From Gemmatimonadaceae bacterium (GTDB taxonomy: Bacteria; Gemmatimonadota; Gemmatimonadetes; Gemmatimonadales; Gemmatimonadaceae): DNA of 33,141 nucleotides. A program made the translations under genes and the position numbers. The notes below the pieces were generated by a model. The model saw only the letters and a list, made by a program, of their open reading frames with translations. It did not search any database and was not told the origin of the DNA. The stretch is from positions 1 through 33,141 of the forward strand of contig JANYHT010000027.1 of the NCBI GenBank assembly GCA_025358925.1, given 5' to 3'. Of the stretch, positions 6,983 to 19,455 are shown one piece after another. Each line of letters starts with the position of its first letter. The stretch's first letter is position 1.

Positions 6983-7196
6983 CGACTATGGACCGCAGTC
7001 GCTTGGCCCAACTGCTGGAAGAACACGAGCAAGAAGCCACATCATCGAAAAGGAGTTTGATGTAATGGAAGATGCGTTAGCCGCCGATTGATGGATGAAC
7101 GAGGAATACACGAACAGCACACCGCGAAGCGTTCCGCTTGCCTTCGCTCTTCGATCTGGCCATCGTTGGAGTATACGCTTGTCGATGAGGTTTCCA
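6983..7196. other. no gene recognised; cassette debris
   Basis: A short plus-strand frame from an ATG at about 6986 reads MDRSRLAQLLEEHEQEATSS and stops after about 25 codons. A GTTAGCC-like box occurs near 7076. Nothing larger can be supported. Confidence 0.3.
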
Positions 7197-7593: not shown

Positions 7594-8272
7594 TCGCTTC
7601 ACCACCGCCGCGCTCCTGCTGCTGCTGTCTGCGTGCGGACCGCGCACGGCGACTATGCACACGCCGCCGCCGAATGCGTCGCGTCTCCTACTCGATCCCG
7701 CGAATGCCGAATGGCGCCGCGCCGCACCGCCTGTTTCGCATCTGCGTGTCGAGACAACGAAAGGCGTCTTCGTACTCGAACTCGTCCGCGCGTGGGGGCC
7801 CATCGGCGCCGATCGATTGTACAATCTCGCGCGACTCGGCTACTACAACGACACACGCGTGCATCGCATGCGCACTGGGTACATCGCGCAGTGGGGATTG
7901 CATGGCGACTCGGCCGTGAACGCGGCGTGGACAGGTCGCTACATCGACGACGATCCGCCGCGTTCGCACAACACACGCGGGACGTTCGCGTTCTCCTACG
8001 AGGGCCCGGGGAAGGAGCGCACGCGCAACACGCAGATCTATGTGAACCTCGCCGACAATCCGCGCAACGACATCGAACCATTCACGGTGCTTGGCACCGT
8101 CGTCGAAGGCATGGCTGTGCTGGATCGTTTGTACGGAGGCTACGGCGAAGCGTCGGGCAGTGGCGTGCGGCAAGGGAAGCAAGGTCCGTTGGAGCGTGGC
8201 GGCAATGTGTTCATGGACCGCGAATATCCGAAGCTTGATCGGATCCTGCGCGTCACGGTGCGCGCCCGTTAG
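7586..8272 (+). CDS. cyclophilin-type peptidyl-prolyl isomerase lipoprotein
   Basis: From the ATG at 7586 the protein has 228 residues and starts MTDRFTTAALLLLLSACGPR, a lipoprotein signal with an LSAC lipobox. The rest is a cyclophilin-like domain: LRVETTKGVFVLELVRAWGP, DTRVHRMRTGYIAQWGLHGD, RGTFAFSYEGPGKERTRNTQ and PFTVLGTVVEGMAVLDRLYG. The catalytic-site sequence (FHR-I-GF--QGGD in typical members) appears as VHRMRTGYIAQWGLHGD, so Arg is kept but Gly-Gly is changed. Expected role: proline isomerisation in the periplasm, anchored to a membrane. An earlier in-frame start at 7571 lies in the toxin remnant and is less likely. A deleted, close copy of this gene lies at 20826-21073 on the other strand. 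Confidence 0.88.
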   Translation: MTDRFTTAALLLLLSACGPRTATMHTPPPNASRLLLDPANAEWRRAAPPVSHLRVETTKGVFVLELVRAWGPIGADRLYNLARLGYYNDTRVHRMRTGYIAQWGLHGDSAVNAAWTGRYIDDDPPRSHNTRGTFAFSYEGPGKERTRNTQIYVNLADNPRNDIEPFTVLGTVVEGMAVLDRLYGGYGEASGSGVRQGKQGPLERGGNVFMDREYPKLDRILRVTVRAR

Positions 8273-8282
8273 CTTCGGCCGT

Positions 8283-8768
8283 ATGACTTTACGCAATCGC
8301 CTCGCCATCGCACTCTCGATCATCTCACTCGCGTTGCTCTGGCCCGGATTAGTACAGCCGGTGCTGACCATTCGCGCAACGATGCAGCTGTTCGGGACCA
8401 CGCGCGAATTGTCCAATGAAACGCGCAGCGTAATTAGCGCGATTCAAAGTCTGCATGCGTCGCGCAACGATGTTGTCGCCGGTCTGATTTTGGTTTTCAG
8501 CGTGCTCATTCCACTCACGAAGGCGGCGTTGCTCATCCCCATTGTGGCGATGCGCCAATCGCAAAAGCGATATCAGTTGTTCGTGTTCGTTCAGGCGATA
8601 AGCAAGTGGTCGATGGCCGACGTGTTTGCCGTCGGTATGCTGATTGCGCTCCTGGTGGCGAAGGGCACCGCCAACTTGTCCGCCGTTGCCGGCCCCGGAT
8701 TTTATTTTTTCACGGCGTATTGTCTGACATCGAACGCGGCATTCCAACTACTCCGCATCGAAGCATAG
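8283..8768 (+). CDS. PqiA-family (paraquat-inducible protein A-like) membrane protein
   Basis: A 161-residue membrane protein starting at ATG 8283. Four hydrophobic segments are visible: LAIALSIISLALLWPGLV near the start, VAGLILVFSVLIPLTKAALL, ADVFAVGMLIALLVA and GFYFFTAYCLTSNAAFQLL. The stretch VQAISKWSMADVFAVGML followed by GPGFYFFTAY is characteristic of PqiA/YebS domains (WSMxDVFxVxxL, GPGxYFF). PqiA proteins work with MCE proteins in lipid transport between membranes; here there is one PqiA domain and no mce gene nearby, so the role is inferred by family only. It follows the cyclophilin gene with a 10-base gap and may share its transcript. Confidence 0.85.
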   Translation: MTLRNRLAIALSIISLALLWPGLVQPVLTIRATMQLFGTTRELSNETRSVISAIQSLHASRNDVVAGLILVFSVLIPLTKAALLIPIVAMRQSQKRYQLFVFVQAISKWSMADVFAVGMLIALLVAKGTANLSAVAGPGFYFFTAYCLTSNAAFQLLRIEA

Positions 8769-8905: not shown

Positions 8906-9300
8906 GCCCGATCGATGGCGCTCTGGTTTCCCTCATCCGCCTGGTGCGAATGGACTTCGCGTTCGCGTAGTCACGGAGAACAACGAGTCGCTGCGTCGTC
9001 AAGTGAAGCGGATGCTTTGTCGCGCAGCTTCCTAACAACAGATTGCAGTTGACAGCCGCTAAAAGCGACGATGGCAGCCTATCCCGAAAGAAAGGTGTGT
9101 CAACTCGGCATGGCCGACGAGCTTATTCGCCGTTCGCTAGCAGATCGCTCAATAGCGATTCAGCATGTTTTTGCGCCTTCAACACTGGCGCAAGGTCGTC
9201 ACAGGTTTTGCTACAGTCTCGTTGAGGTTCACCGAAGATGATGACGTTGTCGTGTTGCTCAATCAGCATGGCCCGCGGGCCACAGCATTTCACCTAGAGA
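8906..9300 (+). other. cassette debris without an intact gene
   Basis: A plus-strand frame ends VVTENNESLRRQVKRMLCR and AAS, with its TAA (9033-9035) inside the attC-like box at 9030, as in a cassette gene; its start is lost. After the attC remnant a 44-codon frame from about 9110 begins MADELIRRSLADRSIAIQHV. I do not recognise either product. Confidence 0.4.
9030..9115 (+). repeat. decayed integron attC site
   Basis: The left end reads CCTAACAACAGATTGCAGTT and then GACAGCC, nearly the same as the left end at 6366. AGTTGACA (9047-9054) pairs with TGTCAACT (9098-9105). The final GTTRRRY box is not recognisable, so the right end has decayed or been replaced. Confidence 0.6.
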
Positions 9301-14611: not shown

Positions 14612-14662
14612 CCGTTCATACGATCACCACGTTTGTCCTCTCTCCATCCCGCTGGAGCCGTC

Positions 14663-15553
14663 ATGTTAACACTACCTATTGTGTCCGTACGTCGTGCGAC
14701 GCTTGCCGCTGCGTTCTGCACGCTCCCTTTCACGCTTGCGGCGCAAGGTGGCGCCCCGTCCGCGCGGACGCCGCGCGCTGATAGCCTGCAGCGCGCTAGT
14801 CGTCTCGACACTGACGGTACGACCACCGAAGCACGCGCGATATTTGCTGCGCTCATCGAAAGCGCGCCCGATCCGGCCGCGAAAGCCGCTGCACAACGCT
14901 CGATGGCCATTTCTTATGCGTTTGATGGCGACTGCGCCAACGCGGTGAAGTATGAAGAGATGGTCATTGCTTATTGGAAGACACGCGAACAGGCCGAGCC
15001 ACAGAACGCGTTTTATCAGCAAGGTGAGATGGCCAACGAAGCGGCGCGCGTGTGCATTGACGCAGGCAATTTCGACGTGGCGTTGAACTATTACATGATG
15101 GGCACCAAGCTGGGGAACGGTGAACCCGAGCCGCGAACGCATCCGAAGTCGTTGTGGAGCTTTCGCGTTCACCACGCGATGGGTCGTGTCGCCGCGCGTC
15201 GCGGGAACAGAGCTGAAGCGCTGCAACACATCGAGATGGCGCGGAAGTCGTTAGATAGCGATAGCACGATGGCCGTGGCGCAGCGTCGGTATCTCCCGTA
15301 CCTCGAGGGTTATGTCGCGCTGTACACAAACGATTTACTGGGTGGGCAAAAATACCTCACTGAAACGTTGGCCATCACCGGCAACGAACGCGATCCGTTC
15401 TTCACGTACTTGGTGGCGCTAACACACGACAAGCTCGGACATGCCGCCGTTGCAAAAGAGTGGTATCAAAAAGCGTACGATCTGGCCACCGCACACACGC
15501 CGCCGTCCGCGTTTGTCCGACCGAATGCGCGGCGGAAACTTGCGGGGATGTAG
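14663..15553 (+). CDS. secreted TPR-like protein
   Basis: A 296-residue exported protein from ATG 14663, with GGAG eight bases upstream and a signal peptide (TLAAAFCTLPFTLAAQG). The mature part is helical with repeated pairs typical of tetratricopeptide repeats: SRLDTDGTTTEARAIFAALI, AAAQRSMAISYAFDGDCANA, AGNFDVALNYYMMGTKLGNG, RGNRAEALQHIEMARKSL and HDKLGHAAVAKEWYQKAYDL. Conserved partners are not visible, so it is best called a periplasmic scaffold of unknown role. It follows the nitrilase by 51 bases and may be co-transcribed. Its last 20 codons recur as an orphan fragment at 16859-16924. Confidence 0.75.
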   Translation: MLTLPIVSVRRATLAAAFCTLPFTLAAQGGAPSARTPRADSLQRASRLDTDGTTTEARAIFAALIESAPDPAAKAAAQRSMAISYAFDGDCANAVKYEEMVIAYWKTREQAEPQNAFYQQGEMANEAARVCIDAGNFDVALNYYMMGTKLGNGEPEPRTHPKSLWSFRVHHAMGRVAARRGNRAEALQHIEMARKSLDSDSTMAVAQRRYLPYLEGYVALYTNDLLGGQKYLTETLAITGNERDPFFTYLVALTHDKLGHAAVAKEWYQKAYDLATAHTPPSAFVRPNARRKLAGM

Positions 15554-15945
15554 TAAGCCGAGCGGGCAACTCGTTGGACGCGAGCAGCTCATGCGTCAGT
15601 GCATGCTGCAATGATTCGCTGACGCGACCTGCATGAGGGAGACAAAACCCATTAGAGAACGACGCGCCGTATAGCGCACCGCTAGGCGCCTGCCAAAGTG
15701 AAATCTCTACCACGTCGATTGAACCAAGGTCGCGTGGCGATGAGCGCCGGTTCGAGCAACGTGTTCGTACTGGGGTCGATCACAGTCACCGCGTGTACAC
15801 GTCTGATCAGCCGTGTACACGCGATCTCGCGATGAGGTTGCTGTTGCGCCGGGCAATGCGGGAGCCTGCGGCGTACTGCCCTTCCCTTGCGATGACGATG
15901 CTGCCGCGCTGACGTTTGTCGCGCAACTCCACGTGAGCAGCCCAA
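15554..15945 (-). pseudogene. unidentified gene remnant, two frames
   Basis: On the minus strand, HAVTVIDPSTNTLLEPALIA and TRPWFNR lead, after a frame change near 15710, into VEISLWQAPSGALYGASFSN, GFCLPHAGRVSESLQHALTH and ELLASNELPARLT. Codon use and amino-acid mix look like real protein, and the two pieces adjoin as if one base shift had split them. There is no start signal and the 3' end runs to the end of the TPR gene. HALTHEL recalls gluzincin proteases but the second His is absent. Family unknown. Confidence 0.4.
15790..15823. repeat. 34-bp near-perfect palindrome with two CGTGTACACG units
   Basis: CGCGTGTACACG and CGTGTACACGCG flank TCTGATCAGC. Each arm contains the perfect palindrome CGTGTACACG, the centre contains TGATCA, and the whole is palindromic with a single mismatched pair. 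It could be a paired operator or a hairpin. Confidence 0.75.
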
Positions 15946-15991
15946 GGGGAACGAAGGTGGCGGCTGAGCAATTACCCAGCTGCCGTGTGGT

Positions 15992-16666
15992 TCACGCCTT
16001 CACGTCCGTCGCGCCCCAGTTCTTGTAATCGTGCTGCAATTCGGCAGAGTGTTTGTCGTCCCGTGCACGCGTTCCGAGGACGATGCCACCATCCTTGATT
16101 CCACGTTCGTATTCAATTGCTCGTACCTCGGGAATACCTGCGCCAACGAGGGCGCCAATTAATCCACCAGTGACACCACCTGCACCGGCACCAGCGAGCG
16201 CGGCCGCAATCGGACCCGCGACCACAAGTCCAAGTCCGGGTATCACGATGCTCGTTCCGATCGCGAGGAGCGCTCCGAGGGCAGCACCAACGCCGATGCC
16301 AACACCACCGCCAACGCCTGCCCCTTCCGCGGCCTTCGTACCCTTCTCGAATTCCTGTCCGGGCTTCACATCACCGAAGTGCTTTTTTCGACTTTCGTCA
16401 GACATCAGCACACTGATATCTTCGCCTTTATAGCCGTGTTTGGTGGTGAGATCATGATACGCGCGACCAGCTTGTTCCGGTGACGTATACATGCCTGTAA
16501 CGAGCGATTCATGCTTGCGTGCATCCGCAATCTCGCGCTCGCCTGCAACTTTAACTTCGCGATCTCCGGTCACTGTGCCATACGCTTCTTTCGTTGCACC
16601 TTTCGCGCGCTGAGCGAGTGCCGCAGCCTCTTCACCAGCTGTTTCGTCCTTCCGCCTGTTGTCCAT
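15992..16666 (-). CDS. CsbD / general-stress-protein fusion with glycine-rich membrane domain
   Basis: From ATG 16666 the protein has 224 residues in three parts. Residues about 10-50 resemble the CsbD stress domain: AQRAKGATKEAYGTVTGDRE. Residues about 55-105 resemble the YflT/general-stress-protein 17M domain: VTGMYTSPEQAGRAYHDLTT and GYKGEDISVLMSDESRKKHF. The third is a glycine-zipper-like hydrophobic block (VGGGVGIGVGAALGALLAIG then AGAGAGGVTGGLIGALVGAG) ending in a charged tail (YERGIKDGGIVLGTRARDDK). Such proteins accumulate in stress and at the envelope; molecular function is unclear. The longer frame from 16747 has no better start. Confidence 0.8.
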   Translation of the reverse strand: MDNRRKDETAGEEAAALAQRAKGATKEAYGTVTGDREVKVAGEREIADARKHESLVTGMYTSPEQAGRAYHDLTTKHGYKGEDISVLMSDESRKKHFGDVKPGQEFEKGTKAAEGAGVGGGVGIGVGAALGALLAIGTSIVIPGLGLVVAGPIAAALAGAGAGGVTGGLIGALVGAGIPEVRAIEYERGIKDGGIVLGTRARDDKHSAELQHDYKNWGATDVKA

Positions 16667-16858
16667 TGTTGTTCTCGCTGAGGTGTATCGATGTAATTCT
16701 CGAGTCCGAGGATCTGTCGATAAGCCGCACAAGTTTGCAATGTCCATGCCTCGAATCCAGCGCTCGAGTTTGTGCGACGTGAATTATTTTTCAGTTATCG
16801 ATGATGTCGTCGCCCAATACAATTTGGTGAAGCGCAAAGAATATGTCGCGCTGTAGTG

Positions 16859-16924
16859 CTGGCACACACGCCGCCGTCCGCGTTTGCGCAACCAAATGCG
16901 CGAAAGAAGCTAGCCAAAATGTGA
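16859..16924 (+). pseudogene. orphan C-terminal tail of the TPR gene
   Basis: The frame reads HTPPSAFAQPNARKKLAKM and stops, against HTPPSAFVRPNARRKLAGM in the 14663-15553 gene. Only about 20 codons remain and nothing of the rest is recognisable upstream. Confidence 0.85.
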
Positions 16925-16948
16925 TGTAGTGCGCGCTGCGGTCATCAG

Positions 16949-17040
16949 TTACTCACCACGCAGCGCGCGCATCGGATCCACGCGGCTCGCCCTCCGCGCG
17001 GGAAGAATCGAGAGAAGAGTGCTACCCCGTATCTCGCACG
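16949..17040 (-). pseudogene. ABC-type permease (MacB/FtsX-like) C-terminal remnant
   Basis: The minus strand reads STLLSILPARRASRVDPMRA and LRGE before TAA at 16951-16949. Permeases of the MacB/FtsX and acidobacterial ADOP type end this way (PARRAARVDPMxALRxE). No membrane segments or start are left between here and the DUF5916 gene. Confidence 0.75.
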
Positions 17041-17091
17041 ATCACGCTGGTGTGCTCGAATGCGCGGTGATACCTGCGCAGGATTTGTCAG

Positions 17092-19455
17092 TTACCGCCG
17101 TGTGCGCACTCGATACAAATAACTGATCTTCAAAAACGCCCCATCACTCGTGCGTTGCAAATCGCCCGGACGCTGCGTTTCTGAAGCGTCGAGCGCGCTC
17201 CCATAGCCGAGATACGCGACCGTACCCGGACTTGGCAAATACGACACCAACCAATCCACTCGTCCAAGCAATGATTTCTTTGCGCTTTGCAATGCGTAAC
17301 TGCCGTCGGTGCCTCGACGCAGCAACGCAAGCTCTGTGCGTGGATCGCGCAACGCGGATCGCTCCCGCGACTCGAGCTGGCCGACAAAACGCAGGAAGAG
17401 CGCACGCGAGAATTGGTATTCCATCCGCACGCGTGGCACGACCTGCGAACTGAACACACTACCGTCGCGCGCACGAACGAACCGCTGATATAGAACGAGT
17501 GTGCCAATGCGGGCCTTCGGTGTTGGGCGAAGATCGACACTGACTTCCGCATCACGTCGACGCACCGTGGACGTCTCAAAAAACTCTGCTTCGGTGCCGA
17601 GTGTCGTCGCGAGCGTGACGCCGATGCGTTTCCACTGTGGTGTGTTGATTCGAACCGCGACGTTACTCGTGCCCTGGACCGCACTTGGTGTGAATGCCAC
17701 AGTGTCGCGTCCATTCGCGGACAATGTGTAGAGTGTGGCATACCGACGGGCATCAAACGACGTGCGTTGATACTCGGGAGTGACGCTCACTTTCCAACCA
17801 CCACGAATCTGCATCGAATTGTCGAGCGACAACCGTGTCTCAAGTGGTGCGCGTCGTTGCGCGAAGCCGTCGTACGTCCAGAGTGTGGTGCCGGTGAAAA
17901 AATGTTGACGTTGATCCCACCAGCCACCGGGTACGCCAAAGCTCGTCAGACGCTGATTCATCTGCCCTTTGACATAATCCACGCGGTTCACAAATCCGGA
18001 TCGCGTCTCGAAGTTCGGCGAAAATGCTTGCAGTGCAAAACGGTTGCCGTAACTGCGACCAGAGCGCCCTTGATTGGCTTCCCAAAGCATACCGTTCCGC
18101 GTCGCGGTATCGTGCGTGACGCTGCCCGCGACACGAAATTCGGCGCTGTAATACTTGGCGAACTGCAACCGCGAATCGAACCCTGCGACGCGATTGAAAC
18201 GCCCACCTTCGGACCGATTCGTCAACACCAGACCGGCCGTACTCTGATCGCCAATATCTCGGCGCAACCGCACGATGTTGAACATGGGATGCGACTTGCC
18301 GTCATAACTACTCGATGCGCCGTCGATCGCGTTCAGCACACCGACGTCCATGCGCGGCACTTTGCCCGTGAGCTTGATCGCACCGAGGGGCTGGACGATC
18401 GATCTCGTATTCACGAGTTTGTTGGGTGCGTCGAACTGCTCACTCCCCTCAAGAAAAAATGGTCGCAATTCAGGAAAGAAATTCGCGAAGCGCACATCGC
18501 CAGGAATTTGTCCAACGTCGGTTTCAATCTGACTAAAATCCGGATTGACCGTGGCATTGAGTGTGAAGTTGGACGTCACACCCCAGCGCATATCGCCGCC
18601 CGCTTCGCTCCGCGTGCCACGATTCCATCCATTTGACGACGGCGTGCCCGTTGTCGTGGTGATCGACGCTGGCGTGAGATCAAGTACGAGGCCGCGTTTC
18701 ATGCCGGTCATACCACGAAGCGACCCCGCCTGCGCGAGGAAACTTTGATTCGCGCGCGAGGACGGTGACCACGTATCCTGATAGCCCGTGCGTTGCGTTT
18801 GACGCACGATTTGTATGCCCCAATCTTGCGACGCGCTCGTTTGAAATCGGATGGACTTGAACGGAATGCGCATCTCGACTTCGTATCCGTCGTCGAGTTG
18901 GCGGCCTGCCGATTGCCAGACGTAATCTTGCGAGAGATCGACAGCCTGTAATGCCGCCTTCGACACACCGGGGCCCGGCGACTGTTCGCTGCGCATGCCG
19001 TCGGCCTGCACACCAAGGGGATTGACGGCGAACACAAACGAACGACGATGATCGTTGAATGTGTCGAGATGCAATGCCACCCAGTCGTCATTTGTAATAC
19101 GATCGCGTTCCGCGAGTGTGGCACGCACCGTTCCGGCGGGGGCCCACGCACGGATGCCAACGTACAGCGCGTCTGCCGAGTACCAGATGCGCACTTCGGT
19201 GGAGTCCTGCGCGTCGCGTCCGTCTACGGGGTTATACGAGGTGAATCCGGTAAGAATACTGGCGCGCTGCCACGCGATTTCGTCGAGCTTCCCGTCGATG
19301 ATGACGCGTTCGTCGAGCCGTGGCGCGTTGATGTTCAAAACGCGTGCGCGACCACTGTGCACCCTTGCCACAGCCGGTGATGTTAGCGCGTCAGACGGAC
19401 CTACTGGAGAACCAGTAGCGGCGAGCTGAAACAGGACGTGCACGAGATGCAACAT
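17092..19455 (-). CDS. DUF5916 / CBM9-like outer-membrane protein
   Basis: From ATG 19455 the protein has 787 residues. A signal sequence (HLVHVLFQLAATG) is followed by a family-9 carbohydrate-binding-like domain: DERVIIDGKLDEIAWQRASI, EVRIWYSADALYVGIRAWAP, VALHLDTFNDHRRSFVFAVN and YEVEMRIPFKSIRFQ. The second half is a DUF5916 beta-barrel: NPDFSQIETDVGQI, FANFFPELRPFFLEGSEQFD, then many aromatic/charged strands ending in FLKISYLYRVRTRR. Members often sit beside peptidase or TonB genes in Gemmatimonadota and Bacteroidota; function is unknown, with surface binding of glycan or peptide likely. The upstream 45 residues of the longer frame look non-coding. The neighbouring gene diverges. Confidence 0.88.
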   Translation of the reverse strand: MLHLVHVLFQLAATGSPVGPSDALTSPAVARVHSGRARVLNINAPRLDERVIIDGKLDEIAWQRASILTGFTSYNPVDGRDAQDSTEVRIWYSADALYVGIRAWAPAGTVRATLAERDRITNDDWVALHLDTFNDHRRSFVFAVNPLGVQADGMRSEQSPGPGVSKAALQAVDLSQDYVWQSAGRQLDDGYEVEMRIPFKSIRFQTSASQDWGIQIVRQTQRTGYQDTWSPSSRANQSFLAQAGSLRGMTGMKRGLVLDLTPASITTTTGTPSSNGWNRGTRSEAGGDMRWGVTSNFTLNATVNPDFSQIETDVGQIPGDVRFANFFPELRPFFLEGSEQFDAPNKLVNTRSIVQPLGAIKLTGKVPRMDVGVLNAIDGASSSYDGKSHPMFNIVRLRRDIGDQSTAGLVLTNRSEGGRFNRVAGFDSRLQFAKYYSAEFRVAGSVTHDTATRNGMLWEANQGRSGRSYGNRFALQAFSPNFETRSGFVNRVDYVKGQMNQRLTSFGVPGGWWDQRQHFFTGTTLWTYDGFAQRRAPLETRLSLDNSMQIRGGWKVSVTPEYQRTSFDARRYATLYTLSANGRDTVAFTPSAVQGTSNVAVRINTPQWKRIGVTLATTLGTEAEFFETSTVRRRDAEVSVDLRPTPKARIGTLVLYQRFVRARDGSVFSSQVVPRVRMEYQFSRALFLRFVGQLESRERSALRDPRTELALLRRGTDGSYALQSAKKSLLGRVDWLVSYLPSPGTVAYLGYGSALDASETQRPGDLQRTSDGAFLKISYLYRVRTRR

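Follow-up and report, generated by a model that had tools for sequence, protein, structure and literature searches.

Probable template-switch origin of a near-perfect 34-bp palindrome in the remnant of a beta-propeller gene

A near-perfect 34-bp palindrome in the genome of a Gemmatimonadaceae bacterium is most probably a mutational footprint in a pseudogene, left by one short polymerase template switch (a quasipalindrome mutation). The palindrome lies in a stretch of 33,141 nucleotides (“the window”), and the sequence around it is, judged by homology, a frameshifted and shrunken remnant of a DUF305/YVTN beta-propeller gene on the minus strand (Table 1). Both flanks are homologous to this one gene family, one arm of the palindrome matches the homologues, and the other is a 12-nt inverted copy of it, which occupies 13 nt where the homologues have 12. 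A sequence-only reading of this DNA had already placed the palindrome within an unnamed gene remnant; the homology of both flanks agrees with this and gives the remnant its name.

Table 1. Features at and around the palindrome (positions in the window)
Feature	Positions	Strand	Basis
Near-perfect 34-bp palindrome	15790..15823	none	16/17 pairs
Ancestral arm and centre	15803..15823	-	CGC GTG TAC ACG GCT GAT CAG = R-V-Y-T-A-D-Q, as in L087 and L089
Derived arm, 13 nt ACGTGTACACGCG, versus 12 nt (x-S-N-T) in homologues	15790..15802	-	12/13 exact inverted copy; +1 frameshift
Linker remnant before the propeller, ends SRDRVYTADQ	15803..15928	-	Profile E 4.6e-7; 0 and 2 of 2000 shuffles
Propeller remnant past the frameshift, VTVIDPSTNTLL, homologous to VSVIDPSTNRLL	15754..15789	-	0/2000 shuffles; profile E 0.01
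62-codon open stretch, possible C-terminal end of propeller gene	15552..15737	-	Weak: shuffles, alignment order
TPR-repeat protein gene, convergent neighbour	14633..15553	+	Coordinates, family search
CsbD-like/stress-protein gene, convergent neighbour	15992..16747	-	CsbD below curated cut-off
Decayed counterpart of the bidirectional intrinsic terminator of G018	15956..15987	none	T-tracts lost; z -1.4

Symmetry of the Palindrome

The palindrome reads CGCGTGTACACG-T-CTGATCAG-C-CGTGTACACGCG, i.e., two 17-nt arms with a spacer of 0, of which 16 of 17 positions pair. The sequence-only reading had described it in the same place with one mismatch, had noted that each arm is itself symmetric around a TGATCA centre, and had considered such symmetry unlikely to arise by chance. 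All three points hold: the pairing and the symmetry can be read directly from the sequence, and the window contains 2 copies of CGTGTACACG compared to 0.05 expected, with at least two copies in only 1 of 100 shuffles. Near-perfect inverted repeats are not rare in this genome: when arms of 14 or more, at most 1 mismatch, and a loop of at most 10 were required, one contig of 395,125 bases had 10 of them and the window 2. The unusual part of the palindrome is the self-symmetry of each arm, and not the near-perfect inverted repeat as such.

This self-symmetry is a coincidence of V-Y-T codons: GTG-TAC-AC(G) is itself symmetric. Throughout the genome, the single 10-mer CGTGTACACG occurs in 17 places, compared to 4 for the reversed control and 9.1 expected from an order-2 Markov model. 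All 15 sites outside the palindrome fall within long frames whose codon usage is strong, where the motif is read as V-Y-T (C-GTG-TAC-ACG) in 13 and as R-V-H in 2 cases. The excess of single CGTGTACACG sites is thus a codon effect.

The Gene Remnant

When 395 genomes of the phylum were searched at the DNA level, 31 of them (the own genome included) matched at E up to 0.01. Nine loci were inspected (L079-L087), eight of which were set aside by eye as short similarities due to coincidence; the one informative match, a weak one, was L087 (genome G147, E 0.003). The gene at this locus reads DNHRDRVYTADQVSNTVSVIDPATNRLLGQLRLG on its minus strand, and its protein is a DUF305-YVTN/YncE-like beta-propeller (PF03713, PF21783, TIGR02276). 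On the minus strand of the window, one frame gives SSRDRVYTADQ and the next gives AVTVIDPSTNTLL. Set against shuffled sequences, this homology was reached by 0 and 2 of 2000 shuffles for the half that corresponds to the linker, and by 0 of 2000 for the half that contains VIDP. A profile built from six homologues and run over six frames likewise recognized the linker half (E 4.6e-7) and, weakly, the VIDP half (E 0.01), so that homology to the propeller gene extends to both sides of the palindrome, strongly in the profile on the linker side and weakly on the other. The remnant shares with the genes at L087 and L089 the linker and the first propeller strand; in contrast to these genes, it has a frameshift and lacks most of the propeller. 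There is no open frame through a propeller: the frame shifts at the palindrome, and the propeller core was not found in the stretch.

The six homologues are the loci that reach the start of the propeller query (L087/L088 and L089-L093) among the matches listed from a search in which 118 of 179 genomes matched, most of the listed matches covering only repeat blades. Not all six are whole, since the frame changes at a later point in L092, and L093 is cut off by the end of its contig. For one more, in G124 (26% identity, query 12-153), and for the other loci L094-L117, a motif scan alone was run and found nothing. At E 0.001, the propeller query had no match in the own genome (G000) or in G018, the nearest relative found with the neighbouring gene pair, and did not pick up the remnant itself; on this basis, no intact propeller copy is seen in either assembly.

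Further along, the 62-codon open stretch possibly represents the C-terminal end of this propeller gene, left after a large internal deletion. This is suggestive only: its alignment keeps the right order, and 14 and 22 of 1000 shuffles reach its score against the last 110 amino acids of the propeller protein, but 121 and 113 of 1000 do so against the whole protein. Its profile score is negative, and it has no protein matches in the 178 other genomes of the family. The scored pieces of the palindrome-bearing stretch have best frames of about 0.04 bits per codon or less, compared to 0.23 for the TPR gene; codon usage thus shows no strong signal of coding, as expected of a remnant.

Other similarities in this region were set aside. 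An exact 23-nt match to G008 and G017, where the gene is presumably PorV-like, had raised a PorV remnant as a candidate. It was treated as a coincidence; it implies another frame and strand sense than the propeller reading, and in the window its bases belong to the codons around I-D-P-S-T-N-T-L-L-E. When the window was compared by tblastx with regions of G029, G112, and G147 for synteny of the propeller gene, no block around 15550-15950 was convincing and the joined statistics were not interpretable; one row (15799-15960, 33% over 54 amino acids), whose match in G147 lies apart from the propeller gene, was treated as noise.

Old and New Arm

Comparison with the homologues tells the two arms apart. 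The minus strand of the window reads GAT CGC GTG TAC ACG GCT GAT CAG, then ACGTGTACACGCG, then GTG ACT GTG ATC GAC CC. At L089, which belongs to another species of the same genus (G029), the corresponding segments are GAC CGT GTG TAC ACC GCT GAT CAG, GTC TCG AAC ACC, and GTA TCA GTG ATC GAC CC, and the consensus of L087 and L089 is GTG TAC ACM GCY GAT CAG GTC TCG AAC ACS GTR TCR GTG ATC GAC CC. The middle segment comprises 12 in-frame nucleotides (x-S-N-T) in all six homologues examined, compared to 13 in the window. Because L087 and L089 share R-V-Y-T-A-D-Q and all six homologues have the 12 in-frame nucleotides, the arm that carries these codons is the old one and the 13-nt segment is the new one (Table 1). 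We infer the exact ancestral bases, as the closest homologues belong to another species of the genus (G029) and to other genera.

Of the 13 nucleotides of the new segment, 12 repeat nearby sequence in reverse complement. Against the 61 nt that precede the segment, its longest inverted match spans 12 nt, a length that none of 20,000 random genomic 13-mers reaches, whereas its direct (non-inverted) match is 10 nt. Its edit distance to the 12 nt of the homologues is 7-8, compared to means of 7.5-8.3 for its own shuffles; being as far from the homologues as shuffled sequence, it is unlikely to have arisen by gradual change. Moreover, the arms pair better than they would have in the ancestor, for which the homologues stand in: 16 of 17 positions pair in the window, whereas the six homologues reach 7, 8, 5, 6, 5, and 3 of 17 (ungapped) at the homologous centre, none of them forming a good ungapped inverted repeat there. 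As to an imperfect inverted repeat that predates the change, visual inspection shows ACCGTGT...ACACGGT on either side of the site in L087 and CTGATCAG in L089, yet the ungapped pairing of the homologues is low.

A single event would best account for this arrangement. The ancestral minus strand would have encoded the start of a YVTN beta-propeller (...D-R-V-Y-T-A-D-Q-x-S-N-T-V-S-V-I-D-P...), in which the codons CGTGTACACG (V-Y-T) and CTGATCAG would have been self-symmetric by happenstance. During replication, the growing strand might have paused at CTGATCAG, the putative hinge, and then folded back or crossed to the sister strand. A 12-nt reverse complement of the V-Y-T codons just passed would have been synthesized before the strand rejoined its proper template just upstream of the GTG codon. 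As a result, about 12 nt would have been replaced by 13, creating the near-perfect palindrome and shifting the frame by +1. The mutation may have killed the gene, or may have come later.

The one mismatched pair does not follow from exact copying: the derived arm has A instead of the predicted C as its first base, so that an extra substitution or an imprecise switch is needed. Further points count against a template switch, namely the shortness of the remnant homology, the weak first DNA match (E 0.003), the profile E value of 0.01 for the VIDP half, and an ancestor that is seen only through homologues. The weak profile support for the VIDP half and the weak first match lower our confidence by a hair.

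Alternative Explanations

The new arm could also stem from direct slippage duplication of the self-symmetric 10-mer CGTGTACACG instead of inverted copying, which we consider unlikely. As the arm is its own reverse complement, a direct copy would indeed yield 10 of the 13 nt; the inverted copy, however, accounts for 12 nt, with the arm-extending CG among them, and the symmetry centre is the 8-nt palindrome CTGATCAG, which also speaks against a direct duplication.

Given its position, the palindrome might instead be a hairpin that serves the 3' ends of both convergent genes, as a terminator or mRNA 3' stabilizer that replaces a decayed terminator. The palindrome lies between convergent genes, 236 nt past the stop codon of the TPR gene and 168 nt past that of the CsbD-like gene, and its RNA folds well (-22.7 and -28.3 kcal/mol, z -3.6 and -4.0). 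In G018, the TPR protein is 90% and the CsbD-like protein 84% identical to that of the window. The gap between the matched coding stretches is 79 nt in G018 compared to 444 nt in the window; the approximately 365 extra nucleotides, including the palindrome, are absent from G018. Within its gap, G018 has a bidirectional intrinsic terminator of textbook form, flanked by a T-tract on either side (-45.1 kcal/mol, z -6.8). The homologous stem in the window (to L029 in G018) has lost its T-tracts, part of the stem survives, and 19 of 200 shuffles fold as well (z -1.4); the loss of the T-tracts is in favour of such a hairpin. However, the flanks of the palindrome read acagtcac and atctcgcg, with a T-tract on neither side, so that the stem followed by T-tract of an intrinsic (Rho-independent) terminator is lacking, and a terminator scan did not find the palindrome. 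The distance to both stop codons and the explanation of one arm by ancestral codons likewise argue against this origin, which is distinctly unlikely. A combination of both ideas, in which the template switch in the dying gene bore a new regulatory hairpin that became a putative transcript end or mRNA protector after the old terminator had lost its T-tracts, appears very unlikely.

The sequence-only reading had suggested a paired regulator site and had proposed to count such pairs in the genome and to see whether they precede genes of one pathway. Two regulator dimers bound to two CGTGTACACG sites, 20 bp from centre to centre (about two helical turns), would suit binding to one face of the DNA, and unrelated genomes carry similar pairs too (genome collection, 16 stretches; viral collection, 4 stretches; e.g., a viral contig with four copies, L051). 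In its own genome, however, the pair stands alone: with fixed spacing and up to 3 mismatches, two CGTGTACACG with the TGATCA centre occur once in the entire 4,006,182 bases (4.0 Mb), and GTGTACAC-N8-16-GTGTACAC with 0 mismatches is found in 1 of 179 genomes of the family, the own genome. The recurrence upstream of genes that marks the operator of a regulon was therefore seen neither in the genome nor in its relatives, and the lone motifs lie inside coding frames, as described above for 15 of 15 sites. A convergent intergenic site is, in addition, not an expected place for a promoter operator. No recognized gene lies downstream, and one arm is ancestral coding sequence. A shared regulator site or regulon was thus rejected, and a paired operator at this locus is highly improbable.

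Some of the pairs found elsewhere deserve mention in their own right. The viral contig (IMGVR_UViG_3300009605_003299) has four near-identical copies of CGTGTACACGTAAACGTTTACGTGTACACG at 7106-7135, 7845-7873, 8371-8400, and 8941-8970, which lie among minus-strand frames and outside every stop-free frame of at least 80 codons; two of them follow CCTCCTAA, by eye a would-be ribosome-binding site on the minus strand. These copies look like a repeated set of operators or hairpins with the same arm-in-arm symmetry. Three Dietzia records (L037, L043, L044) have perfect or near-perfect inverted repeats on CGTGTACACG pairs (AACGTGTACACGAA..TTTCGTGTACACGTT), and Leucobacter sp. OLIS6 (L041, L046) has a GAACGCGTGTACACG...CGTGTACACGCGTTC inverted repeat on a CGTGTACACG pair twice in one genome. 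The pairs in Dietzia and Leucobacter are possibly real paired operators or hairpins there.

A terminus or relic of a mobile element, akin to the lost element to which the sequence-only reading had alternatively assigned the palindrome, has next to no probability, as a second copy was not found in the genome, two frames scanned in the stretch had no Pfam family match, searches gave no plasmid match at E 1e-5 and no phage match at E 0.1, and both flanks match one propeller gene, with one arm being its ancestral coding sequence, although the absence of the palindrome-bearing stretch from G018 would be in line with an insertion.

Relation to Known Template Switches

The proposed mechanism is already known, and the window provides one more natural footprint of it, in a bacterial pseudogene. 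Template-switch mutations that make quasipalindromes more perfect are established in E. coli, with lacZ reporters and a thyA hotspot among the systems described (PMC7202029). Related papers concern yeast, primates, and other systems. As in these systems, an imperfect inverted repeat would have been made near-perfect by a clustered change templated by the other arm. In contrast to the scored mutations in E. coli (PMC7202029), the present case is read from one natural pseudogene and distant homologues, one base misfits, and the starting quasipalindrome is not directly seen. Template switches can also make perfect stems in one event, as has been inferred for evolving RNA genes (PMC8794818). Both cases have in common that a reverse-complement copy made in one event would yield a stem; there, however, RNA genes with reconstructed ancestors were concerned (PMC8794818), whereas here the gene is a dead bacterial protein gene and the hairpin is one predicted from sequence.

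The palindrome illustrates that what looks like a designed regulator site can arise from one copying error on ordinary codons, and that homologues can tell the old arm from the new. It is also a readable, natural case of quasipalindrome mutation from a bacterium that is not E. coli. The practical lesson for scanning genomes is to check a one-off palindrome within a pseudogene against homologues before naming it a binding site.

Other Features of the Neighbourhood

Of 30 genomes of the genus, to which its search was confined, 2 have the TPR protein, namely G000 and G018; the CsbD-like protein was found in 18 of 179 genomes of the family (the own genome included), with 51% identity in the next best after G018, and among these the surroundings were compared for the G112 region. 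For 15300-17300, a search at E up to 1 detected no known RNA family. Between the CsbD-like gene and a DUF5916 gene, 16842-16914 of the window holds a degenerate second copy of the 3' end of the TPR gene (53 nt at 83%, plus TATGTCGCGCTGTA); it is absent from this place in G018, where the flanking alignments overlap by about 17 nt. At approximately 16950-17010, a minus-strand frame ends in LPARRASRVDPMRALRGE*, which we take to resemble the end of a MacB/ADOP-type ABC-transporter permease; this is probably another gene remnant.
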